DNA of 64,000 nt from Microbacterium sp. (GTDB taxonomy: Bacteria > Actinomycetota > Actinomycetes > Actinomycetales > Microbacteriaceae). The stretch lies in the NCBI RefSeq assembly GCF_017305435.1, contig NZ_JAFKIP010000005.1:415580-479579 (forward strand), given 5' to 3'. The position numbers and the translations under genes were made by a program. The number at the start of each line of letters is the position of its first letter. The stretch's first letter is position 1. The notes beneath the pieces are model-generated. The model did not search any database and was not told the origin of the DNA. It saw only the letters and a program-made list of their open reading frames with translations. Positions 25,729-36,691 of this stretch are shown one piece after another.

Positions 25729-27039
25729 ATGAAACTCTCCGTCATCGGTTGTGGCTATCTTGGCGCGGTGCATGCGGCCGCGATGGCGTCCGTCGGTCAT
25801 GAGGTCGTCGGCATCGACGTCGACCAGCTCAAGATCGATGCACTGTCGATGGGGCAGGCGCCGTTCTTCGAGCCCGGGCTGCAGGAGATCTTGACCGCGG
25901 GCATCGAGGCGGGCAACCTGCGATTCACGACCGACATGGCGGAGGCTGAGGGCGCAAAGGTCCACTTCATCGGAGTCGGTACACCCCAGCAGAAGGATGG
26001 TTACGCAGCCGACCTCACCTATGTGAACGCCGCGATCGACGGACTGCTGCCGTACCTCGCCGAGGGTGACATCGTCGCGGGCAAGTCGACCGTGCCGGTC
26101 GGGACGGCGGCGGGGCTCGCTCCGCGTGTGTCGGCTACCGGGGCGACGCTCGTATGGAATCCCGAATTCCTACGTGAAGGGTGGGCGGTCAAGGACACGC
26201 TGGACCCCGATCGTCTCGTCGCTGGGGTGCCCGCGGGAGCGGACGGCGAGCGTGCGGCGGACGTGCTGCGAGAGATCTATGCGCCGGCGGTCGCGAAAGG
26301 CACCCCGTTCCTTGTAGTCGATCTGCCGACGGCCGAACTTGTGAAGGTGTCCGCCAACGCGTTCCTCGCAACCAAGATCAGCTTCATCAACGCCATGGCT
26401 GAGATCGCGGAGGCGACCGGCGCAGACGTCAGCAAGCTCGCAGAGGCCATTGGCTACGACGAGCGGATCGGTCGTCAGTTCCTCAAAGCCGGCATCGGCT
26501 TCGGTGGGGGGTGCCTTCCGAAGGACATCCGAGCGTTCTCGGCGCGGGCGGAGGAGCTGGGGCGCGGAGAATCGGTTGCCTTCTTGCGGCAGGTCGATGA
26601 GATCAACCTGCGTCGGCGAGACCGCGCTGTGCAGCTCGTCGTGGAGGGTCTCGGCGGTGCGGTATTCGAGAAGAACGTGACTGTGCTGGGCGCGGCGTTC
26701 AAGCCGCACTCCGACGACATCCGTGACTCTCCGGCGCTTGACGTCGCGGTGCGGTTGCACGGGCTGGGCGCGAACGTGACGGTGACGGATCCGGCGGCGA
26801 TCGAGAACGCGCAGCGGGTGCACCCGCAGTTGAACTACGTTCTCGACCGCGATGAGGCGCTACGTGACGCTGATGCGGTCGTGCTCGTGACCGAGTGGGA
26901 CGAGTACCGGCGCGAGCTGGACCCGGAGCACGCGTCGGCGCTTGCGCGCGGGCGTGTGGTCGTCGATGGGCGCAATGGGCTCGACGCGGCGGCCTGGCGT
27001 GCGGCGGGGTGGACGTATTACGGGATGGGGCGGCCGTAG
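25729..27039 (+). CDS. ugd: UDP-glucose 6-dehydrogenase
   Basis: A 436-residue enzyme oxidising UDP-glucose to UDP-glucuronate with two NAD. The N-terminal Rossmann motif is SVIGCGYLGAVHAAAMASVGHEVVGID. The substrate domain has NPEFLREGWAVKDTLDPDRLV, and the catalytic Cys lies in GFGGGCLPKD. The C-terminal NAD-like domain has LGAAFKPHSDDIRDSPALDV. It is full length. AAGGAG lies 7 nt before the ATG. Its G+C is high again, so it marks the right-hand native border of the locus. Product use: UDP-glucuronate directly, or UDP-galacturonate through the epimerase at 18020. GalU at 44406 supplies the UDP-glucose. Confidence 0.95.
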   Translation: MKLSVIGCGYLGAVHAAAMASVGHEVVGIDVDQLKIDALSMGQAPFFEPGLQEILTAGIEAGNLRFTTDMAEAEGAKVHFIGVGTPQQKDGYAADLTYVNAAIDGLLPYLAEGDIVAGKSTVPVGTAAGLAPRVSATGATLVWNPEFLREGWAVKDTLDPDRLVAGVPAGADGERAADVLREIYAPAVAKGTPFLVVDLPTAELVKVSANAFLATKISFINAMAEIAEATGADVSKLAEAIGYDERIGRQFLKAGIGFGGGCLPKDIRAFSARAEELGRGESVAFLRQVDEINLRRRDRAVQLVVEGLGGAVFEKNVTVLGAAFKPHSDDIRDSPALDVAVRLHGLGANVTVTDPAAIENAQRVHPQLNYVLDRDEALRDADAVVLVTEWDEYRRELDPEHASALARGRVVVDGRNGLDAAAWRAAGWTYYGMGRP

Positions 27040-27857: not shown

Positions 27858-29060
27858 TCAGGCCGCGATCACGACGAGCGTCGACACCGTTCCGTGCGGG
27901 TGATCGGCCTGCACCGTCAGCGTCGCCTGGTTCGCGCGCACCGAGTTGCACCGCGGTGACGCCTCCGTCGTGCTCGACGACGCGAGGGCCTCGAGCTCGC
28001 GATGGCGGACCTCATCCGTCGTCACCCCGTCGTCGATCACCACGATCGAGGTGTGGTTGTACGTGCGGTGCGCCTCGATCGTGATCCTGCCGCCCGGTGC
28101 GCAGTGGTCGATCGCGTTCGAGACCAAGGCGGCGAGCACCTGTCGCAGCTCGGCCTGATCGAAGCGCACGAGCCCGCAGCCCTCGTCGCGCAGGTGCAGG
28201 GACATGCCGCGCGCGGCGGCGATCGGGAGGAAGACGGAGCAGACGTCGGTCAGCGCCGCCGACAGATCGGTCGCGTCGATCGAGCGGATGATCTCCTCGC
28301 GCGCGGTGTGGAGGAGGTCGTCGACCGTGTCGACGAGCAGGTTCGTCGAACGCAGAATGCGCTGCGCGGCGTCCTGCGTGGCGACGTCCTCCGACAGCAG
28401 CTCCGCGTACCCGCTGACGGCCGTCAGCTGCCCCCGCAGCCGGTGTGCGGCGTCGCGGAGGAACTCGTCGCGCACGCGCGTCGCGTCGTACTTCGTCGTC
28501 ACGTCGCGGGCGAAGATGACGCTTCCCCGCGGCCCTCGACGACCGGAGATCTCGCGCGCGACCACCCAGACGGTCCGTCTGTCGTGCTCATCTCCGACCC
28601 ACATCGTCATCGGCACCGCGCCGCCCATGGCGATGAGCTTGTCGACCCGCTCCGCGTACTCGTCCGGCGGTGTCGCGCGGTCCGCCTCCGAGAGGCGGAG
28701 CGCAGCCAGATCGACCCGCTCGCGCAGATCGTCGGGAAAGCCCATGTGGGTGAGGAGGCCACGGGCGATCGCGTTCATCCGGACCGGCGCGCGCCGCGCG
28801 TCCAGGACGATCACACCCAACGACATCGCGTCGGCGAGGGCGAAGAAGTCGTCCGAACCGTGGGCGCGCAGCGCCCTCCGGTCGCGTCCACGCCTCCAGT
28901 CGCGCCACCACCTGGGCTCGGCGCCGATCACCGTGCTTCCGCGGACTTCACGGAAAGTCAGCTGATCGCAGCGCGGCAGATCAAAACCCGTCAGGTCGAT
29001 CGGTCCGAAGGCGATGTAGGCATCCGCCGCGAGGGACCATTGCCGAAGCTTCGTGGGCAC
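27858..29060 (-). CDS. PAS sensor kinase-like protein with eroded ATPase domain
   Basis: A cytoplasmic kinase-like protein of about 400 residues. PAS-like region: DDFFALADAMSLGVIVLDARRAPVRMNAIARGLL. H-box: RDAAHRLRGQLTAVSGYAELL, with His and the LR/G pattern but not HELRTP. N-box: VLAALVSNAIDHCAPGG, with the Asn. G1 is reduced to DDGV, and no G2 (GxGLG) follows, so the ATP lid is lost. It may bind ATP poorly and act as a phosphotransfer or scaffold protein. Start uncertain: the frame is open to 29210, but a conserved noncoding-type module covers 29048-29154, so I use GTG 29060; a GTG nearer 28940 is also possible. No response regulator is adjacent. Confidence 0.65.
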   Translation of the reverse strand: MPTKLRQWSLAADAYIAFGPIDLTGFDLPRCDQLTFREVRGSTVIGAEPRWWRDWRRGRDRRALRAHGSDDFFALADAMSLGVIVLDARRAPVRMNAIARGLLTHMGFPDDLRERVDLAALRLSEADRATPPDEYAERVDKLIAMGGAVPMTMWVGDEHDRRTVWVVAREISGRRGPRGSVIFARDVTTKYDATRVRDEFLRDAAHRLRGQLTAVSGYAELLSEDVATQDAAQRILRSTNLLVDTVDDLLHTAREEIIRSIDATDLSAALTDVCSVFLPIAAARGMSLHLRDEGCGLVRFDQAELRQVLAALVSNAIDHCAPGGRITIEAHRTYNHTSIVVIDDGVTTDEVRHRELEALASSSTTEASPRCNSVRANQATLTVQADHPHGTVSTLVVIAA

Positions 29061-29154
29061 TTTCTCCGGAGTGAGATGTAGATGGGGTCGGCGTCCCGCC
29101 GGAATCATGCGGGTTGCCGGCGGTGCGTGCCGCGTTGCTCCTGAGAAAGTGCTC
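29048..29154. repeat. Inverted-motif module, copy 1
   Basis: Left arm 29048-29071 (GCTTCGTGGGCACTTT then CTCCGGAG) and right arm 29137-29154 (GCTCCTGAGAAAGTGCTC) are inverted copies of one motif. The same pair with the same spacing recurs at 33885-33990, on the other side of the beta-helix/GT2 operon. The 65 nt between the arms are not conserved. It may be a paired operator, facing promoters or a small mobile-element relic. Confidence 0.7.
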
Positions 29155-29240
29155 AGCTGCGGCGGCGTTCGCGCGGTGCACGCGTCACCGCAGCGGCCCG
29201 CCGGCCCCACCGGCGCGGCCGCTGCCCCGCGACCCCGCTA

Positions 29241-29253
29241 ATGTGACTCACAT
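29241..29253. promoter_or_regulatory. Palindrome upstream of the beta-helix/GT2 operon
   Basis: ATGTGACTCACAT is a perfect palindrome with a single central base, 33 nt before the GTG start of the operon and next to a TAATGT box. It fits a dimeric regulator such as a CRP- or GntR-type protein, but the spacer is shorter than the CRP consensus. Binding is inferred. Confidence 0.45.
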
Positions 29254-29286
29254 CACCGGACCCCTGATCCCCCCGACGGAGGCGCC

Positions 29287-30309
29287 GTGCCGCGAATCAC
29301 CGTGACGCGCGCGCGCCGCGCTGCCTCCGTCGCCCTCGCGGCCGCCGCCCTCGCGGGCGCGCTCGCCGCGTGCGCGCCCGACGCGGGGGAGGCGGAGCCG
29401 GCGATCGACGAGTGCCCGAGCGGCGCCGTGGTGATCGGCGCCTCGGCATCCGACCTGCAGAAGGCGCTGGATGCCGCGCAGCCGGGCTCCGTCATCCGCC
29501 TCGCCGACGCGACCTACGCCGGGCGGTTCACGATCACGGTCTCCGGAACCGACGATGCGCCGATCACCCTCTGCGGGCCGAGCTCGGCGGGGATCGACGG
29601 CGGCGACGTCGCCAGCGGCTACGCGCTGCACCTCGACGGCGCCTCGCATTGGGTGGTGCGCGGGTTCACGGTGACGGGAGCCGCGAAGGGCATCATGCTC
29701 GACGGCTCCTCCCACAACGAGCTGCACGACCTCACCGTCTCGGGCACCGGCCAGGAGGGCGTCCACCTGCGCGCGGCCAGCTCCGACAACCTCGTCGAGG
29801 GGCTCGTCGTGCACGACACCGGCAGGGCGACGCCCGAGTACGGCGAAGGCATCTACATCGGCACCGCGACATCCAACTGGTGCGACGTCACCGACTGCGA
29901 GCCGGACCGCAGCGACCGCAACCGGATCATCGACAACAAGGTCTTCGCCGTCACCGCCGAAGCCGTCGACGTCAAAGAGGGGACGACCGGCGGAGAGCTC
30001 CGCGGCAACGACCTCACCCTCGGTGAGAACCCCGCCGTCGACTCGGTCGTCGACCTCAAAGGCAACGAGTGGACCGTCGAAGGCAATACGATCGATGCGG
30101 CCGGCGACACCGGCATCCAGATCCACTCGGTCGCACCGGGCTGGGGTGCCCGAAACACCCTCAGCGCCAACACGTTCCACCTCGCGAAAGACGCCGTCGC
30201 GATCGCCGTCGTCGGGGATGCCCGCGGCCTCGGCAACCGCGTCGACTGCGACAACACCGGCCCGGACGGTCCGGTCACGATCACCGGCGCGACCTGCGCC
30301 GCGAGCTGA
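29287..30309 (+). CDS. Right-handed beta-helix lipoprotein (carbohydrate epimerase/lyase-like)
   Basis: A 340-residue protein starting at GTG 29287 with GGAGG 4 nt upstream. The signal peptide ends in the lipobox LAAC (C29). The rest is a parallel beta-helix: SDLQKALDAAQPGSVIRLADATYAGRFTI, then repeating turns (GIMLDGSSHNELHDLTVSG, GEGIYIGT, NRIIDNKVF, NTLSANTF). This is the fold of NosD, alginate epimerases and PL6-type lyases. Clear catalytic residues could not be assigned. It is the first gene of a three-gene operon with a processive GT2 and a second beta-helix protein. I infer that it binds or edits the polymer made by the GT2 on the cell surface. Confidence 0.8.
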   Translation: MPRITVTRARRAASVALAAAALAGALAACAPDAGEAEPAIDECPSGAVVIGASASDLQKALDAAQPGSVIRLADATYAGRFTITVSGTDDAPITLCGPSSAGIDGGDVASGYALHLDGASHWVVRGFTVTGAAKGIMLDGSSHNELHDLTVSGTGQEGVHLRAASSDNLVEGLVVHDTGRATPEYGEGIYIGTATSNWCDVTDCEPDRSDRNRIIDNKVFAVTAEAVDVKEGTTGGELRGNDLTLGENPAVDSVVDLKGNEWTVEGNTIDAAGDTGIQIHSVAPGWGARNTLSANTFHLAKDAVAIAVVGDARGLGNRVDCDNTGPDGPVTITGATCAAS

Positions 30310-30319
30310 AGGGGGAGGG

Positions 30320-31639
30320 ATGGCCACGCTGCAGGCCTTCGCCGACGGTGCGCTCTGGCTGCTGCCGTTCGGGCTCCTCGGCATCGTCTCGTGGGGCTTC
30401 TGGCTCACCCGCAAGCTCCTCTCCGCGACCGCCCGCCCCACGCGCAACGACTTCCGCACGACGACCACTCTCGTCGTCCCCTCGTTCCACGAAGACCCCG
30501 ACGTCCTCATCCGCTGCCTCCACACGTGGCATCGCCAGGGCCCGGGCCGCATCATCCTCGTCCTCGACCTCGCCGACACGGAGGCCCAGCAGCGCATCGA
30601 GGCGCTCGCCCTGCCCGGCGTCCACGTCGAGATGTTCGCCCACCGGGGCAAGCGCTCCGCCCTCGGCCACGGCATGCGGATGGTCGACACCGAGCTGATC
30701 CTCTTCGCCGACTCCGACACGGCGTGGGAGGACGGCATGCTCGACGCGATCCAGATGCCGTTCATCGACCCCGCCGTCGGCGCCGTCAGCACGCGGCAGA
30801 ACGTCTACCTGCCGCGGTCGAGCGTCTGGCGCCGCATCGCGGACTGGATCATCGACCTGCGCTACTACGACTATGCGCCCGCCATGGGCCGCTACGGCGG
30901 CATCATCTGCGCCTCCGGCCGGACGTCGGCCTACCGCACCTCCGTGCTGCTGCCTCAGGTCGAAGACCTCGAGCACGAGATGTTCTTCGGCCGTGAGTGC
31001 ATCGCGGGCGACGACGGGCGGATGACCTGGCTCGTCCTCTCCCAGGGCTTCCGCGTCGCCCACCAGGACACGGCCCGCGCGCTGTCGATGTTCCCCGGCA
31101 CCTTCCGCGCCTTCGTCAAGCAGCGCATCCGCTGGAGCCGCAACTCCTACCGCTGCTACCTCACGGCCATCGGCAAGGGCTGGGTCTTCAAGGTGCCCTT
31201 CATCTCGCAGCTCACGATGATGCAGATCCTCATGACGCCGTTCACGATGCTCGTCGCGATCGCCTACGTCCTGCTGTCGGTGCGGTCGGCGAGCCCGTGG
31301 CTGGCCCTCGGCCTCGCCGTGCTGTGGGCGGTCGTCGGTCGCGGCATCCGCAGCATCTCCCACCTGTGGCGCAGGCCCGAAGACCTCGTGCTGCTGCCGC
31401 TCGTCGCGGCCGTCATCGCGTTCATCGCCCTCCCGATCAAGATCTACGCCCTGTTCACGATGAACAAGCAGGGCTGGCTCACCCGCTCCGCCGACCGACA
31501 GGGCGGCGAAGGGCAGACCGAGGCCTCGCTGGTCGTGCCGAGCGTCGCCAACGAGACGCTCGACGGGGCTCTCGACGAGCCCGTCGACCCGGTCCCCGAC
31601 GGGGCACTCGGCGAGCCGGAAGCGGCCCCGCGCGCATGA
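30320..31639 (+). CDS. Processive GT2 glycosyltransferase (hyaluronan/chitin synthase-like)
   Basis: A 439-residue membrane glycosyltransferase. One TM lies at residues 12-30, the GT-A domain at about 48-275, and three or so TMs at 300-380. The processive GT2 motifs are complete: D83 (VLDLAD), DSD 131-133 (LFADSDTAW), GDD 230-232 (AGDDGRMT) and QRIRW 268-272. GDDGRMT plus QRIRWSRNSYR is closest in style to HasA/NodC/chitin synthases rather than BcsA, and there is no PilZ domain. It should polymerise a beta-linked sugar and extrude it. The ATG at 30320 has GGGGGAGGG upstream. It is coupled by 4 nt to the downstream gene. The sugar donor is unknown; UDP-sugars from galU/ugd are available. Confidence 0.86.
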   Translation: MATLQAFADGALWLLPFGLLGIVSWGFWLTRKLLSATARPTRNDFRTTTTLVVPSFHEDPDVLIRCLHTWHRQGPGRIILVLDLADTEAQQRIEALALPGVHVEMFAHRGKRSALGHGMRMVDTELILFADSDTAWEDGMLDAIQMPFIDPAVGAVSTRQNVYLPRSSVWRRIADWIIDLRYYDYAPAMGRYGGIICASGRTSAYRTSVLLPQVEDLEHEMFFGRECIAGDDGRMTWLVLSQGFRVAHQDTARALSMFPGTFRAFVKQRIRWSRNSYRCYLTAIGKGWVFKVPFISQLTMMQILMTPFTMLVAIAYVLLSVRSASPWLALGLAVLWAVVGRGIRSISHLWRRPEDLVLLPLVAAVIAFIALPIKIYALFTMNKQGWLTRSADRQGGEGQTEASLVVPSVANETLDGALDEPVDPVPDGALGEPEAAPRA

Positions 31640-33849
31640 CCTCGTTCACCGACGAAGAGCGTGGCACCTCGAGCCCGCGCCGCCGCTGGATCGGCCGGGC
31701 CCTCGTCGTCGTCGCGGTCGTCCTGCTCGGGGGAGCGGTCGTGATGCTCACCGACCTCGCCCGCACCGGCAAGGCCCCGTGGGAGGCCTGGTTCGCCGCG
31801 CCGACGCCCGCCGTCTCGGCATCCGTCTCCGCCTCCCCGACACCGTCCCCGACCGCGACCGACGCGGCGGCGGATGCGATCGACCTCGGCGACCCCGCCA
31901 CGCTCGTCGCGCTCGACGACCTGCGGCTCGCGACGATCCTGAAGATGGATGCTACCGACCCCGCCATCCCGGCCACCCTCGGCACGGTCGTGCTCGCGGC
32001 GCGCGACATCCCCTACACGCTCGACGACCTCATCGCGGCGGGCGCCGCGACCTCCGACGGCGGCGGCTTCTTCACGATCGTCCGGTCCGTCGTCGTCCGC
32101 TCCGGCGCCGTGCTGCAGATCACCGCCCCCGGCGCCACCGTGCGCCTGTACAGCGGCGGGGGCGGCCAGTTCGTCAGCATCGTGGCGTGGGGCGGCGGGC
32201 TGGTCTTCAGCGGCGCGCAGGATGCCCCGCTCACCGTCATGGGCGTGACGGATGCCGCCGGCACGGCCGACGCCGATGCCAGCGACGGGCGGGCCTACGT
32301 GCGGGTCCACGACGGCGCGCTCGTGACGACCGACGTGCAGTTCAACTCGCTCGGCTTCTGGAGCGGCCGCACCGGCGGCGTCGCGGTCACCTCGTCGGCC
32401 ACGGGCCTCGCCGTGGCGCAGCTGACCCGCACGCGCATCGACAGCACCCACTACGGCGTCTACCTGTCGGGCGTCCTCGCATCGACACTTTCCCAGGTGA
32501 CGGTGACCGGCGCCGACGACGACGGGATCGTCGTGTCCGGCTCCAGCGGCGTGACGATCGACCAGACCACGGTCAGCGACGTCGCCGGGAACGGCATCAC
32601 CGTCGACCGCGGCGCGCAGAAGATCGCCATCACGGGGTCGAGCATCGCCCGCGCGTCCGGCCACGGCATCCGCATCGACGGCTCGCCCCTCGCCACCGGG
32701 CCGTCGGCGGGCGGCTATCCCACGGTGCGACCCCGCGAGTACACCCTCACCGACGTCACGATCAGCGACGCCGGCGAGGGCGGTGCGCTGCTCGTCGAGA
32801 CCGATGACGCCACGATCGCGGGGCTCACGGTCACCGGGGAATCGATCGGTGCCCGTCTCGTCGGCCCGACGACCGGCGTGACGGTCACGGGGTCATCGCT
32901 GTCGTCGACGTCGGGTGCGGGCCTCGCCGTGTCGCAGCGCGTGCGCGACCTCTCGGTCAGCGACAGCTCCGTCGACGGCCACGGTCGCGCGGTGACCGTC
33001 AGCGATTCGCGCGGCACCATCACGGGCGGCGACGTCGGCGTCGACGTCGGGCACCCGATCGAAGTCGTCGACGACTCGCGCCTCACCGTGACCGGCGCGC
33101 GCCTCACCGGCAGCGGGCAGGACCCGGTGTTCGTCGACGCGGGCAGCACGGCGAAGACGAGCGACCTCGACCTCAGCGCGTGGACCTTCGAGTCGGAGTT
33201 CGTCACCTTCTTGAACAACCACCCCATGATGTGGCTCTGGCTGCTCGTCCTCGTCATCCCGCTCGTCGGACTGCCGCTCATCCGGAGACGGCGGCGGACG
33301 CACCTCGAGCTGCGCGAACTGATCGAGAACGCGATCATCACCTACGGGCACAACCAGCTCGCCGCGTACCAGGCGGGCGGGGCCGGCGCGAGTGTTGCGG
33401 CGGCGAGTGTTGCGGGGGCGAGTGTTGCGGGGGCGAGTGTTGCGGGGTATGCCGCCCCGGATGTGCGGGCGGAGGCCACGGCGGAAGAGGATCCGCCCGT
33501 CGCTGCGGGCGAGCGCTCGCGCCGCTCGCCCACGACCCCGGTCTCGACGACGGCGCCGTCCGCAGCGGTGCCACCGGCCGCGGCCCCGCCCGCCCCGACC
33601 GCGCGCCCGGTGGACGAGCCGCGCTCGTTCAACGACCTGCGCGCGGGTGCGCTCGCGGGGCGCGACTTCGCGTCGATGCAGCAGTTCGCCGTCGCCGCCG
33701 TGCTCGAAGCGGGCTACCCCGTGAGCGTGATCGCGCGACTGTTCCGGGTGCCGTCCTGGCGCCTCGCATCCTGGGTCGAAGGCGCCGTCGTGGCCGCCGA
33801 CGACGACGCGCGCGAGGGCGGCCCGGTCACGGCGTCGCCGCGGCGGTAG
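31636..33849 (+). CDS. Two-TM beta-helix protein with HTH-like cytoplasmic tail
   Basis: A 737-residue protein. The N-terminus is cytoplasmic (SPRRRWIGR), with TM1 about 20-42 and a Thr/Ser/Pro linker (53-75). A long parallel beta-helix follows (about 140-510; turns such as DGIVVSGSSGVTIDQTTVSDVAGNGITVDRG), then TM2 531-549 followed by RRRRRTH. The cytoplasmic tail of about 190 residues contains a tandem ASVAG repeat, a disordered Pro-rich part, and near the end FASMQQFAVAAVLEAGYPVSVIARLFRVPSWRLASWV, which looks like a helix-turn-helix. The positive-inside rule puts both ends in the cytoplasm and the helix outside. I infer a polymer-sensing transmembrane protein. No characterised homologue is recognised. 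ATGA overlap with the GT2. Confidence 0.75.
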   Translation: MTSFTDEERGTSSPRRRWIGRALVVVAVVLLGGAVVMLTDLARTGKAPWEAWFAAPTPAVSASVSASPTPSPTATDAAADAIDLGDPATLVALDDLRLATILKMDATDPAIPATLGTVVLAARDIPYTLDDLIAAGAATSDGGGFFTIVRSVVVRSGAVLQITAPGATVRLYSGGGGQFVSIVAWGGGLVFSGAQDAPLTVMGVTDAAGTADADASDGRAYVRVHDGALVTTDVQFNSLGFWSGRTGGVAVTSSATGLAVAQLTRTRIDSTHYGVYLSGVLASTLSQVTVTGADDDGIVVSGSSGVTIDQTTVSDVAGNGITVDRGAQKIAITGSSIARASGHGIRIDGSPLATGPSAGGYPTVRPREYTLTDVTISDAGEGGALLVETDDATIAGLTVTGESIGARLVGPTTGVTVTGSSLSSTSGAGLAVSQRVRDLSVSDSSVDGHGRAVTVSDSRGTITGGDVGVDVGHPIEVVDDSRLTVTGARLTGSGQDPVFVDAGSTAKTSDLDLSAWTFESEFVTFLNNHPMMWLWLLVLVIPLVGLPLIRRRRRTHLELRELIENAIITYGHNQLAAYQAGGAGASVAAASVAGASVAGASVAGYAAPDVRAEATAEEDPPVAAGERSRRSPTTPVSTTAPSAAVPPAAAPPAPTARPVDEPRSFNDLRAGALAGRDFASMQQFAVAAVLEAGYPVSVIARLFRVPSWRLASWVEGAVVAADDDAREGGPVTASPRR
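33388..33447 (+). repeat. Four 15-bp tandem repeats inside the beta-helix/HTH gene
   Basis: GCGAGTGTTGCGGGG occurs four times in direct order (first copy ends GCG instead of GGG). It is in frame and encodes ASVAA, ASVAG, ASVAG, ASVAG. Copy number could vary by slippage and change the length of the cytoplasmic linker without breaking the frame. Confidence 0.9.
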
Positions 33850-34214
33850 CCCGCGCTCGGGGCGCCGCCCTCCGCGGAGCCCGGGCTTCGTGCGCACTTT
33901 GTCAGGAGCCATGCTGCTGCCCGGCTGTCCGTGCGGCGGGATCGCGTGGTGATGGGCCACGGACGTCGCATCGGTCCTGAGAAAGTGCTCGGGCGCCGGT
34001 CCGTGGGGGAGGGATCGGACTCCACGGGGTGCCGCAGCGCGGAAGATGTCGGCGCAGATCGTCGCTTCAGCGGGATATGGCGACCATCTGCGACGACATC
34101 TCCCGCGGGCTGTCGCGTCAGCCGAACATCCGGGAAGCGCGCACGGGAGGCGGTCCTAACGTCGTCATCGCACCCCCGGCATCCTGCCGTGGAGCGCGGA
34201 GAAAGGATGCCGAC
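33850..34214. other. 365-nt region without a gene
   Basis: It holds the second inverted-motif module (33885-33990) and beyond it about 220 nt that include GTCGCTTCAG-like and GACGACATC-like stretches but no open frame of coding character. The GAP-family gene starts at 34215. A plus-strand frame runs through from 34029 but lacks typical codon use. No hairpin with a U run was found for the end of the upstream operon. Confidence 0.6.
33885..33990. repeat. Inverted-motif module, copy 2
   Basis: Left arm 33885-33908 (GCTTCGTGCGCACTTT then GTCAGGAG) and right arm 33973-33990 (GGTCCTGAGAAAGTGCTC). The arm-to-arm distance is 88 nt, against 89 nt in copy 1 at 29048-29154. The left arms match at 21 of 24 positions and the right arms at 17 of 18. 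It begins 36 nt after the stop of the beta-helix/HTH gene. Confidence 0.7.
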
Positions 34215-34889
34215 GTGAACGACCTGCACACCCTCGTCCCCATCGCGATGGGGATGGTGCTCTCGCCGCTCCCGATCGTGGCGGTCGTGGCGATCCTGCT
34301 CGCGCCGCGCGGGCGGTCGTCGGCCCCGGTCTACACCGCCACGTTCACCCTCGTCTCGCTCGTCGTGATCGGGATCGGCGCGCTGGGCGCGGCGGGTGCG
34401 CAGAGCGCGTCCGGCCCCGACAGCCGGATCGTCTCGCTCGTGATCGGTGCGCTTCTGACGATCGGGTTCGCCGTCTTCGCGATCATCAGCTGGCACGGCC
34501 GGCCCCGCAACGGCGAGCCCGCCGTCGCACCCAAGTGGCTCGCCGCGATCGACGGCGTCACCCCCGCGTCCGCTGCGGGCCTCGGCTTCGTCATGGCGGC
34601 CGCGAACAGCAAGAACATCCCGCTCGCGCTCAAGGCCGGCTCGGTGATCGGCGAGGCCCACCTCGCGCCGCTCCTGGCGGCAGCCCTGTGCCTCGCGGTC
34701 GCCGTCGCCGGTTCGCTGCTGCTCATCATCCCGGCGCTCGTCGAGCTCACCGGCTCGGCCCGCGTGCACACCGCGCTCGTCGGCCTGAAGTCGCAGCTCG
34801 TCGAGCACAACGCGGCCATCATGACCGCCCTGTTCGCGATCCTCGCGGCCAACGAGGCCGCCCAGCTCATCCACCACCTCATCGGCTGA
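34215..34889 (+). CDS. GAP/Sap-family membrane protein
   Basis: A 224-residue membrane protein with six hydrophobic segments and the start LHTLVPIAMGMVLSPLPIVAVVAILLAPRGR, typical of the GAP (Sap, sulfolipid-1-addressing protein) family related to LysE-type transporters. A conserved region NSKNIPLALKAG lies near the middle. Family members in mycobacteria help export surface lipids; elsewhere the substrates are unknown. The GTG at 34215 has GAAAGGA 7 nt upstream. It precedes an amidohydrolase by 26 nt and probably forms an operon with it and the MFS transporter. Confidence 0.78.
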   Translation: MNDLHTLVPIAMGMVLSPLPIVAVVAILLAPRGRSSAPVYTATFTLVSLVVIGIGALGAAGAQSASGPDSRIVSLVIGALLTIGFAVFAIISWHGRPRNGEPAVAPKWLAAIDGVTPASAAGLGFVMAAANSKNIPLALKAGSVIGEAHLAPLLAAALCLAVAVAGSLLLIIPALVELTGSARVHTALVGLKSQLVEHNAAIMTALFAILAANEAAQLIHHLIG

Positions 34890-34915
34890 CCCCCCGCTAT
34901 CCCCTGGAGCCCCCC

Positions 34916-36691
34916 ATGTGCGACACCCACAGCGCCACGACATCCCTCAGCCGCGACCGCATCGCCCCCGCCATCGCCTCCGCCGGCGTCGCGGTCGAGC
35001 CCGCCCACCACAGGGGCGGCCGACCGGCCAGCCCCGCCGCAGGCGGTCGCGCCGATCTCCTCGTCGTGGGGCGCATCGCCACCGGCGACCCCGCCGCCCC
35101 CACCGCGGAGGCCATGGCGATCTCGGACGGGCGCATCATCGGCCTCGGCTCGGCCGCGGACCTCGACGCTCTCACCGGCCCCGCGACGCAGACCGTCGCG
35201 CCCGACGGCGTCGTCATCCCGGGGCTCATCGAGCCGCACGCGCACATCTGGATCTCGCTCCTCACCCTCGACTGGGTGGACGTCTCCCACGTCGCGTGCC
35301 CCCGCTTCGACGACGTCGTCACTACCTTGAAGGCCGCCGCCGCGCACGTCCCTGCCGGCCAGCCCCTGCTCGCGAAGCTGTTCGACCCGAGCCTGTACCC
35401 CGGTGAGCCCGCGCTCACCCGCGACATCCTCGACCGCGTCGCCACCGACCGGCCCGTCATCGTGCTGAACGCGTCGATGCACTTCGCCTACGCGAACACG
35501 GCGGCCCTGGATGCCGCGGGCATCACCGACGCGACGCCGCAGCCCGCCGGCGGAACGCTGGAGAAGGTCGACGGGCGCCTCACCGGCGTCGTGGGGGAGT
35601 CGCCCGCCGTGACGATGCTGCTCGCGCGCCTGCCCCGGCCCACAGAGGCCGACATCGCCCGTGGCATCCGTCAGGTGCTCACCGAGTTCGCCGCGCAGGG
35701 TGTCACATCGATGCGCGAGGCGATGACCGGCACGCTCGCCGGCGTCAGCGAGATCGCGATGCTGCACCAGCTCAACGGCGCCGCACGGCTGCCCGTGCGC
35801 GTGTCGACGGCGCAGTTCTCCACGCTCGCCGGATGCACGACCCCCGCCGACGTCGCCGCCGCGTGGAAGGCCGCCGGCGTCACCCCCTTCAGCGGCGACG
35901 AGATGGTGCGGGCGGATGCCTGGAAGATCGTCGCCGACGGGTCGAACCAGGGGCGCTCGGGCTACTTCCTGCAGCCCTACCTCGGCGAGAACACGGGCGG
36001 CCACGCCAACTGGACTCCCGAGGGACTCCGCGAGGTCATGCGCGCCGGTCTCGACGACGGCTGGCAGCTCATGATCCACACCAACGGGGATGCCGCGGTC
36101 GAATTCGCCCTGGAAGCCGCGGAGGAGCTGCTGCCGCAGTACGCCGGCGGCTCCACCGGCGACGGGCGACGCGGCGACCTCCGCCATCGCTTCGAGCACG
36201 CGTCCGTCACGACCGACGACCAGCTCGTGCGCATGGCATCGGCCGGCGTCTCGCCGAGCTTCCTCATGGATCACGTCTACTACTGGGGCGCCGCGTTCCG
36301 TGACACGATCCTCGGGCCCGCGCGTGCGGCGCGGCTGGACCGTCTGGCATCCGCCTCCCGCGCGGGATTGCGCGCGAGCCTGCACTCCGACTACAACGTC
36401 ACGAAGGTGCAGCCGCTGCACGCGGCACAGACCGCCGTGCTCCGCCGCCTCGAGGCCGACGGAACGGTGCTCGGCCCCGACGAGCGCGTGACGCCCGCGC
36501 AGGCGCTCGCCGCCGTCACGACGGATGCCGCCTGGCAGATCCACGCCGACGACCGCGGTGCCCTCCGCGTCGGTGCGCGCGCGGACTTCGCCGTCGCCGA
36601 CGCCGACCCATGGACGAGCGACCCCGCGGGCTGGCACGACATCTCCGTGCAGGCCACGTACATCGACGGGGTGCCGGCGTATACCGCCTGA
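34916..36691 (+). CDS. YtcJ-like metal-dependent amidohydrolase (amidohydrolase 3)
   Basis: A 591-residue amidohydrolase. Metal-site motif I is IEPHAHIW (H108, H110). Later motifs are DGSNQGRSGYFLQPY, HTNGDAA, RFEHAS and LHSDYN, matching the YtcJ/NfdA-type D-aminoacylase-like branch. The C-terminal beta-sandwich ends with RADFAVADADPW. CTGGAG lies 6 nt before the ATG at 34916. The natural substrate is unknown; it may hydrolyse formamide- or amide-type compounds. Lying between a GAP-family membrane protein and an MFS transporter, it suggests import and hydrolysis of a small molecule. The protein has no signal peptide and should be cytoplasmic. Confidence 0.85.
   Translation: MCDTHSATTSLSRDRIAPAIASAGVAVEPAHHRGGRPASPAAGGRADLLVVGRIATGDPAAPTAEAMAISDGRIIGLGSAADLDALTGPATQTVAPDGVVIPGLIEPHAHIWISLLTLDWVDVSHVACPRFDDVVTTLKAAAAHVPAGQPLLAKLFDPSLYPGEPALTRDILDRVATDRPVIVLNASMHFAYANTAALDAAGITDATPQPAGGTLEKVDGRLTGVVGESPAVTMLLARLPRPTEADIARGIRQVLTEFAAQGVTSMREAMTGTLAGVSEIAMLHQLNGAARLPVRVSTAQFSTLAGCTTPADVAAAWKAAGVTPFSGDEMVRADAWKIVADGSNQGRSGYFLQPYLGENTGGHANWTPEGLREVMRAGLDDGWQLMIHTNGDAAVEFALEAAEELLPQYAGGSTGDGRRGDLRHRFEHASVTTDDQLVRMASAGVSPSFLMDHVYYWGAAFRDTILGPARAARLDRLASASRAGLRASLHSDYNVTKVQPLHAAQTAVLRRLEADGTVLGPDERVTPAQALAAVTTDAAWQIHADDRGALRVGARADFAVADADPWTSDPAGWHDISVQATYIDGVPAYTA

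Follow-up and report, generated by a model that had tools for sequence, protein, structure and literature searches.

Paired inverted repeats beside a polymer operon of Microbacterium probably belong to a genus-wide repeat family tied to winged-helix/nuclease genes

The DNA analyzed here, hereafter the window, is a 64,000-nucleotide stretch of a Microbacterium sp. genome (NCBI RefSeq assembly GCF_017305435.1, contig NZ_JAFKIP010000005.1, positions 415,580 to 479,579 of the forward strand). It contains two short modules with inverted arms, E1 and E2, which lie on either side of a three-gene operon encoding two beta-helix proteins and a hyaluronan-synthase-like glycosyltransferase. Our analyses indicate, with a probability that we put at roughly 0.68, that E1 and E2 are free-standing members of a short paired-repeat family that is found across Microbacterium and is tied to genes for a winged-helix/nuclease fusion protein. 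Elements of this family share one design, in which inverted arms of ∼15 to 18 bp are set at a distance fixed within a base or two (for AACTCCGGA-type arms, most commonly 74 or 86 bp from outer end to outer end), and the interior is nearly free.

The E1 and E2 Elements and Their Dialect

An earlier sequence-only reading of the window had described two modules of the same architecture, with conserved arms and spacing and differing interiors. Both modules were confirmed, and that description of them held. Their arms are mutual inverted repeats (GCACTTTnTCnGGA and TCCnGAnAAAGTGC; end to end, GCACTTTnTCnGGA...TCCTGAGAAAGTGC), a point that the description had only half spelled out, and an inner-arm search allowing one mismatch revealed that the genome carries four elements of this dialect, not two:

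E1: 29049..29156, no strand assigned; inverted arms at 29057-29071 and 29138-29152, 66-nt interior, 96 nt in total
E2: 33886..33992, no strand assigned; inverted arms starting at 33894 and ending at 33988, 95 nt in total, equivalent span 81
E3: C7:380140-380236, on a separate contig of the same genome; found in the one-mismatch inner-arm search
E4: C3, about 58 kb; left arm degenerate; found by arm search, covariance model score 60.9 bits (E4 is in the training set)

E1 has the architecture of the 86-nt type, with a CTC..GAG span of 82, and contains the blocks CTTCGTGgGCACTTTctcCGGAG (29049-29071) and TCCTGAGAAAGTGCTC (29139-29154); the corresponding blocks of E2 are CTTCGTGcGCACTTTgtcAGGAG (33886-33908) and TCCTGAGAAAGTGCTC (33975-33990). 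Measured on the fetched copies, the start-to-start spacing from GCACTTT to AAAGTGC is 89 nt in E1 and 88 nt in E2. The covariance model scored E1 at 108.5 bits and E2 at 98.8 bits, both being members of its training set. The string CTTCGTGNGCACTTT (CTTCGTG-GCACTTT) occurs exactly twice in the 3.5-Mb genome, in E1 and in E2, and a scan of 84,980 species genomes with the two-arm pattern returned a single record, Microbacterium lacticum DSM 20427 (the window's own genome possibly lies outside that collection). Because of this rarity, a chance origin of the match between E1 and E2 is very unlikely.

Among 198 genomes of the genus, a strict-arm search found the dialect only in the window's own genome and in G036, an M. 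lacticum genome. A looser GCACTTT..AAAGTGC search added three genomes (G057, G117, and G187), whose arms agree over just 7 to 11 nt. The covariance model, run on 58 genomes of which 23 came from outside the genus, gave matches at E up to 1 in 34, mostly weak; six were read, and those in G012, G018, G007, and G020 (E 6e-4 to 0.024) were element-like and those in L067 and L070 were not. Three additional weak matches (E 0.12 to 0.53) were found in the window's own genome. It was this model that led to look-alikes with other arms in other species, with modest E-values and confirmed by reading.

A Genus-Wide Class of Paired Inverted Repeats

A search for AACTCCGGA N55-85 TCCGGAGTT found elements in 50 of the 198 genus genomes, with up to 28 copies each; the reversed AACTCCGGA pattern had no match in the same genomes. 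Element length is stepped. The 94 distinct AACTCCGGA-type elements in the fetched loci measure 72 nt (1 element), 73 nt (18), 74 nt (56), 75 nt (8), 84 nt (1), 86 nt (9), and 95 nt (1), and the AACTCCGGA search also contained single elements of 84, 85, and 98 nt. The outer-arm pattern TTCACAA N66-92 TTGTGAA was present in 39 of the 198 genomes, including the window's own (one copy), and its reversed form in none of them. These elements have many inner arms (CTCCGGA, CTCAGGA, CTCAGCA, CTCCTCA, CGTCGGA, and others), and their lengths, counted by hand in 75 plus-strand rows among the matches listed, again cluster: 62 are of 82 to 85 nt and nine of 95 to 97 nt, none falls between 87 and 94 nt, and the remaining rows are one of 86 nt, one of 102 nt (nested), and two of 106 nt. 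Measured in the same way, the spans of E1, E2, E3, and the further element E5 are 82, 81, 83, and 82, and the 86-nt elements have a span of 82.

The gap between deoD and a helicase gene (L176-L204) is a hot spot for short repeats; in several species it holds elements of differing arm dialects and, by eye, near-equal length. In other species the same gap is nearly empty or contains a long hairpin (L183) or an array of tandem repeats (L199).

We also classified the open reading frame (ORF) context of 55 elements with a crude caller, which begins every ORF at its first start codon. Forty have no overlap with a called ORF and 15 overlap one; 24 lie between tandem genes, 11 between convergent genes, and three between divergent genes, and two are unclassified. 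Promoter-like sequence, which we take to be of MerR type, occurs inside elements at G070 C1:2793292 and G106 C7:726830 (GTTGACGTTACCACGG...) and, in looser form, at G111 C12:86952; an element may thus enclose a working promoter, at a possibly orthologous locus in the three species. A phage origin of the elements was considered and rejected: a scan of viral sequences gave eight AACTCCGGA matches (GC 0.31 to 0.61), whose outer arms did not match by eye and which had no nuclease gene, and none to the E1/E2 dialect.

Elements Flank Genes for a Winged-Helix/Nuclease Fusion

In three genomes (G062, G074, and G079), a ∼1-kb segment between two elements encodes a protein of ∼290 residues, and in G090 the same bracketed gene is apparently broken across frames. 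The N termini of the three bracketed proteins match the AbiEi winged-helix families PF13338 and PF17194, and their C termini match REase_MTES_1575, DUF559, and, weakly, Vsr. Several of the C-terminal matches are below curated cut-offs; PF18741 fell below in all three proteins and PF04480 was above in one of the three. No Y1_Tnp or HUH match was found in these three proteins, and a comparison of the nuclease with solved structures gave one weak match, 3hrl (E 0.045). A profile built from the three members finds a homologue at E 1e-15 in 190 of the 198 Microbacterium genomes, and distant relatives (27 to 39% identity) occur in four plasmid records and one phage record.

We next assembled 57 nuclease genes from 66 loci after removal of duplicates; these are the best scorers of the three-gene profile together with chosen regions, many of them in element-bearing genomes. 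The putative active-site residues D, E, and D are present in 57, 52, and 57 of the 57, and the five proteins without the E are the most distant members. A scan for inverted pairs of span 76 to 112, which assumed no arm sequence, found an element within 350 bp of 42 of the 57 genes: upstream of 29, downstream of 33, and on both sides of 20. Mirror pairs, distant windows (just the loci reaching that far), and gene interiors served as controls, and each gave 0 of 57. With the loci that had suggested the idea (L244-L246) and those with elements already known nearby (L277 and L280) removed, the count was 37 of 52. When the settings were relaxed to 650 bp and a score of 20, there was one mirror-control match among 50 loci. 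At the scan score, the 64-kb window contains five inverted pairs besides E1 and E2 and two mirror pairs, a background from which about four chance pairs would be expected around the 57 genes, compared with the 62 flanked sides found.

The arms on the two sides of a gene belong together. For the 20 genes with elements on both sides, upstream/downstream arm similarity was 26.7, compared with 12.1 after permutation (SD 1.6, maximum 20.0 of 5,000), and a gene's own partner arms ranked first in 13 of the 20 and first or second in 17. Among the 42 element-bearing genes, the more identical two proteins are, the more similar their arms tend to be (Spearman 0.355, exceeding every one of 500 permutations). 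Thus, in most cases a bracketed nuclease gene has an arm dialect of its own.

These data also bear on a different account, which we consider unlikely, in which the elements are pairs of operators for an AbiEi-like autoregulator, a DNA loop between them represses or insulates the neighboring genes, and the nuclease part is secondary. AbiEi antitoxins are reported to bind inverted repeats and to autoregulate (PMC7319586), many upstream elements lie ∼100 to 150 bp before the gene, and the helical-turn-like length steps and the A/T phasing described below would suit looping. However, elements are as frequent downstream as upstream (33 and 29 among the 57 genes), a genome can hold as many as 28 copies, and the predominance of tandem over divergent settings among the 55 classified elements is not a promoter pattern.

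The window's own genome gave six matches to the nuclease profile, two of which are neighboring and perhaps one gene. These genes have elements of other dialects or none, and none has E1-E4 arms, the one-mismatch arm search having found E1-E4 only. Since no cognate nuclease gene with the GCACTTTCTCAGGAG dialect was detected in this genome, E1-E4 look like orphan copies. Two of the nuclease copies, at C9:235486-236361 and C9:28812-29666 of this genome (G000), have an internal TGA each; the former nevertheless retains strong elements on both sides, in another dialect (CGTACCGTATTCAGTCT, spans 100 and 103).

The Elements Probably Act as Double-Stranded DNA Sites

The interiors of the elements, symmetrized over the two strands, have A/T-rich steps at helical periodicity. 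In the 56 interiors of the 74-nt class, the period is 10.0 bp with a power of 4.67, compared with a shuffle maximum of 1.12. Eleven elements of other dialects have a period of 10.25 bp (power 4.09 vs. 2.17), and the nine 86-nt elements one of 10.75 bp (3.78 vs. 2.71 in shuffles). The A/T profile of E1, E2, E3, and E5 correlates with that of the nine 86-nt elements (r = 0.717, reached by 0 of 2,000 shuffles); its best period is 10.25 bp, which 8 of 1,000 shuffles reach. Thus, E1 and E2 have the length of the family (spans 82 and 81) and, jointly with E3 and E5, its interior profile. Such phasing suggests the selection expected of bent or wrapped DNA.

Repeats with inverted arms might instead act in RNA, as terminators or 3′ stabilizers with pairing arms. 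Five elements do fold into stems more stable than those of shuffles (z −2.1 to −5.6, plus strand), the interiors of 55 elements form slightly more stable folds than mononucleotide shuffles do (mean z −1.06 and −0.95 for the two strands), and few elements lie between divergent genes. Yet the outer arm flanks, which this test covers rather than the search-selected inner arms, do not covary within genomes (283 pairs vs. 282.6 permuted), one G185 element has arms of mixed dialect, and a terminator needs neither quantized length nor A/T phasing. We therefore regard RNA hairpins as very improbable and the elements as double-stranded DNA sites.

A Possible Mechanism and Its Relation to Known Repeat Systems

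We suggest that the fusion protein recognizes its cognate arms in pairs and would engage the two simultaneously, with a bend in the interior that separates them, an arrangement that would account for the length steps and the A/T phasing. The protein may then cut at the doublet, and repair or transposition would maintain or spread a selfish population of repeats together with the gene that they enclose.

Several observations weigh against this reading. The proposed binding, cutting, and mobility are inferred from sequence. A clean empty site was never found, and in some genomes the deoD locus holds other structures or none. Within a genome, element interiors look unrelated by eye except in local duplicates, which argues against recent copying of whole elements. 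The set of nuclease genes is not random, being biased toward relatives of the bracketed genes and toward element-bearing genomes, and 15 of its 57 members have no element at the threshold used. In L272, L269, and L273, a gene's own downstream arms rank only 8th, 15th, and 20th; there the upstream pair reads inside-out. The correlation between arms and proteins could reflect common descent, because related genes come from related genomes. By domain, arm similarity correlates more strongly with the nuclease (r = 0.388) than with the winged helix (r = 0.199), a pattern that does not favor the winged helix as the arm reader. The slight excess of folding in the interiors speaks against a double-stranded site, the 86-nt A/T profile is dominated by one central A/T step, and E1-E4 are tied to the nuclease by family resemblance alone. 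Finally, E1 lies 134 bp upstream and E2 44 bp downstream of the operon, a geometry that resembles the nuclease-gene brackets and that the reading leaves unexplained.

The closest known parallel is the REPIN/RAYT system. REPINs are described as inverted doublets of conserved arms whose variable spacer is nearly constant in length (most often 71 or 110 bp in SBW25), and as extragenic populations whose repeat classes are tied to particular transposase genes (PMC3116915, PMC8049555). The Microbacterium elements are alike in being inverted doublets of conserved arms with a near-fixed spacer and a tie to specific genes. In contrast, the protein encoded by the gene that they bracket joins an AbiEi-type winged helix and a Vsr/PD-(D/E)XK-like nuclease and did not match Y1/HUH (three proteins), their outer arms lack hairpin covariation, the arms near nuclease genes have no GTAG tag by eye, and their interiors are A/T-phased, with many dialects in one genus. 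They may thus work like REPIN/RAYT with another partner enzyme, yet we do not class them as REPINs, because no tyrosine transposase is bracketed and neither a GTAG tag nor hairpin covariation was seen. GTAG and CGTC palindromic repeats and TIRtrons are likewise short dimeric repeats, some of them around a transposase gene (PMC3733652), and some of the Microbacterium elements also surround a gene. However, the arms near nuclease genes contain no GTAG by eye, CGTC is internal in two, and the partner is not a tyrosine transposase. MITEs were a further point of comparison: their copies would have interiors in common with each other or with an autonomous element, and the interiors here look unrelated by eye apart from local duplicates.

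On the protein side, the winged helix is related to that of the AbiE type IV antitoxin AbiEi (PF13338, PF17194) and differs in being fused to a nuclease. The C-terminal domain of the fusion resembles the REase_MTES_1575, DUF559, and Vsr-like endonucleases. MTES_1575 is a Vsr-fold domain of an M. testaceum protein, and the part of its description available to us states no association with repeats (PMC3710099), whereas the Microbacterium gene has one. Among the matches listed, a literature search returned no account of a pairing between repeats and a winged-helix nuclease, subscription journals being mostly outside its coverage; the system is probably undescribed.

More broadly, the chances seem to us evenly divided that Microbacterium harbors a second kind of long-lived intragenomic repeat population, independent of RAYTs, in which length-quantized, bend-phased doublets of double-stranded DNA are kept by an AbiEi-winged-helix/Vsr-like nuclease and many arm dialects within the genus coevolve with it. 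Such a population could be either a homing-type parasite or a self-marking system. If it is real, a second repeat population with an unrelated partner would test whether persistence stems from transposase chemistry or from the repeat-doublet design. It would also suggest a role for a widespread nuclease family that has no assigned function and a homologue in nearly every genome of the genus, and its gene-linked DNA dialects would be a natural set in which to study recognition.

E1 and E2 in Relation to the Polymer Operon

Three genes lie between E1 and E2, all of which Pfam supports as real, in agreement with the sequence-only reading:

BH1: 29287..30309, plus strand; NosD-like right-handed beta-helix protein (Pfam Beta_helix 4.7e-12, NosD 2.7e-09)
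GT2: 30320..31639, plus strand; family-2 glycosyltransferase of the hyaluronan synthase/NodC type (Glyco_tranf_2_3)
BH2: 31636..33849, plus strand; beta-helix protein (Beta_helix 1.4e-16)

Matches to GT2 at E 1e-20 occur in 22 of the 198 genus genomes, 19 of them, including the window's own, at no less than 56% identity (76 to 82% in 16 genomes and 56 to 57% in two more). The order BH1-GT2-BH2 is kept in 15 of 18 fetched relatives, so the synteny foreseen for the three genes is real; one of the others runs into the end of its contig, and two have undergone rearrangement. In the relatives, BH1 stays adjacent to GT2. Among 14 relatives compared, eight share operon flanks among themselves, and the others and the window differ.

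Had E1 and E2 been part of this operon, whether as a pair of control sites or as the borders of a mobile unit carrying it as cargo, the arms would be expected at its ends in related genomes. The geometry of the bracket, the variable context of the operon between lineages, and the placement of two of just four copies in 3.5 Mb around one operon are in keeping with such a link. However, no convincing inverted-arm element was found at either end of the operon in the 17 relatives scanned, although the scan was only moderately sensitive (threshold 22, at which E1 scores 23.7 and E2 24.3; diverged elements could escape, and the L042 and L044 sequences are short at one end). What it detected was a GC stretch of low complexity near one end in L042; in L041 and L052, weak pairs located inside genes of the operon; and, in L054 and L057, stronger pairs at a distance of ∼2 kb. 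Moreover, reading of the sequences showed that the operon is absent from the loci of E3, E4, and the M. lacticum copy, and the 22 genomes that match GT2 at E 1e-20 do not include M. lacticum G036. Elements also neighbor one another in the absence of this operon in G062, G070, and G090. We thus consider it improbable that the elements belong to the operon. The proposal of control sites is not supported. That of mobile-unit borders pointed in a useful direction, in that such elements do border nuclease genes elsewhere. Nor are the arms scattered over unrelated loci with loose spacing: they do occur at other loci, and there the spacing is conserved. Since elements often lie near each other, the bracketing of the operon is most likely a coincidence, with capture of the operon as cargo a less probable reading.

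The operon itself looks like an ordinary, if uncharacterized, independent polymer cluster of the hyaluronan-synthase type. The closest solved structures to GT2 are hyaluronan synthases (best 8smm, E 8.8e-20), as the sequence-only reading had anticipated, and its scores against the NodC model are far under that model's cut-off. Relative to hyaluronan synthase, NodC, and PgaC, whose GT2 enzymes it resembles, the operon is distinguished by its two beta-helix proteins. Three neighboring genes were annotated:

Nucleotide-sugar dehydrogenase: 25729..27039, plus strand; TIGR03026 5e-120; TuaD model 1.5e-108, below its cut-off
Histidine kinase ORF: 27858..29210, minus strand; HisKA 7e-10, HATPase_c 1.4e-08 (on 27858-29084)
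SfLAP-family membrane protein: 34029..34889, plus strand, downstream of E2; PF11139 5.6e-20

The dehydrogenase is nearest to UDP-glucose 6-dehydrogenases and is a plausible source of UDP-glucuronate. A homologue (83% identical) lies downstream of the operon in G111, with a weaker one in G169; the window's copy is upstream. Given this UDP-glucose-6-dehydrogenase-like gene and its relative next to the operon in G111, a glucuronate-containing surface polymer is a fair guess for the product. A tRNA-linked island was considered and rejected, the window having no tRNA, and an Rfam scan of positions 28000-35000 gave no noteworthy RNA family match.

E1 overlaps the 5′ end of the divergent histidine-kinase ORF, the true start of which is uncertain for that reason. 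Read in one frame, the left arm of E1 encodes LTPEKVPTK (window 29049-29210), and E1 may have donated the start region of the kinase gene. In M. lacticum (L085, L088, and L095), CTCCCGAGGAAGTAC occurs seven times among the matches listed, and the three copies read share a longer flank; it looks like an insertion-sequence end.

Within the operon, BH1 has by eye a lipobox-like N terminus. BH2 has hydrophobic segments near its N terminus and before a C-terminal tail that resembles a helix-turn-helix (HTH; topology by eye). The suggestion of an HTH on this protein thus stands as far as the tail goes, which is kept in relatives; its Pfam matches to transposase HTHs are weak (best 0.00027 in relatives, 0.1 for the window's own tail), and no solved structure matched it. 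Tails of this kind also occur away from BH2 but near the operon, in L055 (5280-5447, minus strand) and L056 (3032-3232, plus strand), where they are apparently separate genes. The SfLAP-family gene downstream of E2 probably starts, by eye, near 34216. Finally, a short tandem repeat of GCGAGTGTTGCGGG units within BH2 (window 33389-33450) encodes ASVAG repeats, which separate the second hydrophobic segment from the HTH-like tail.

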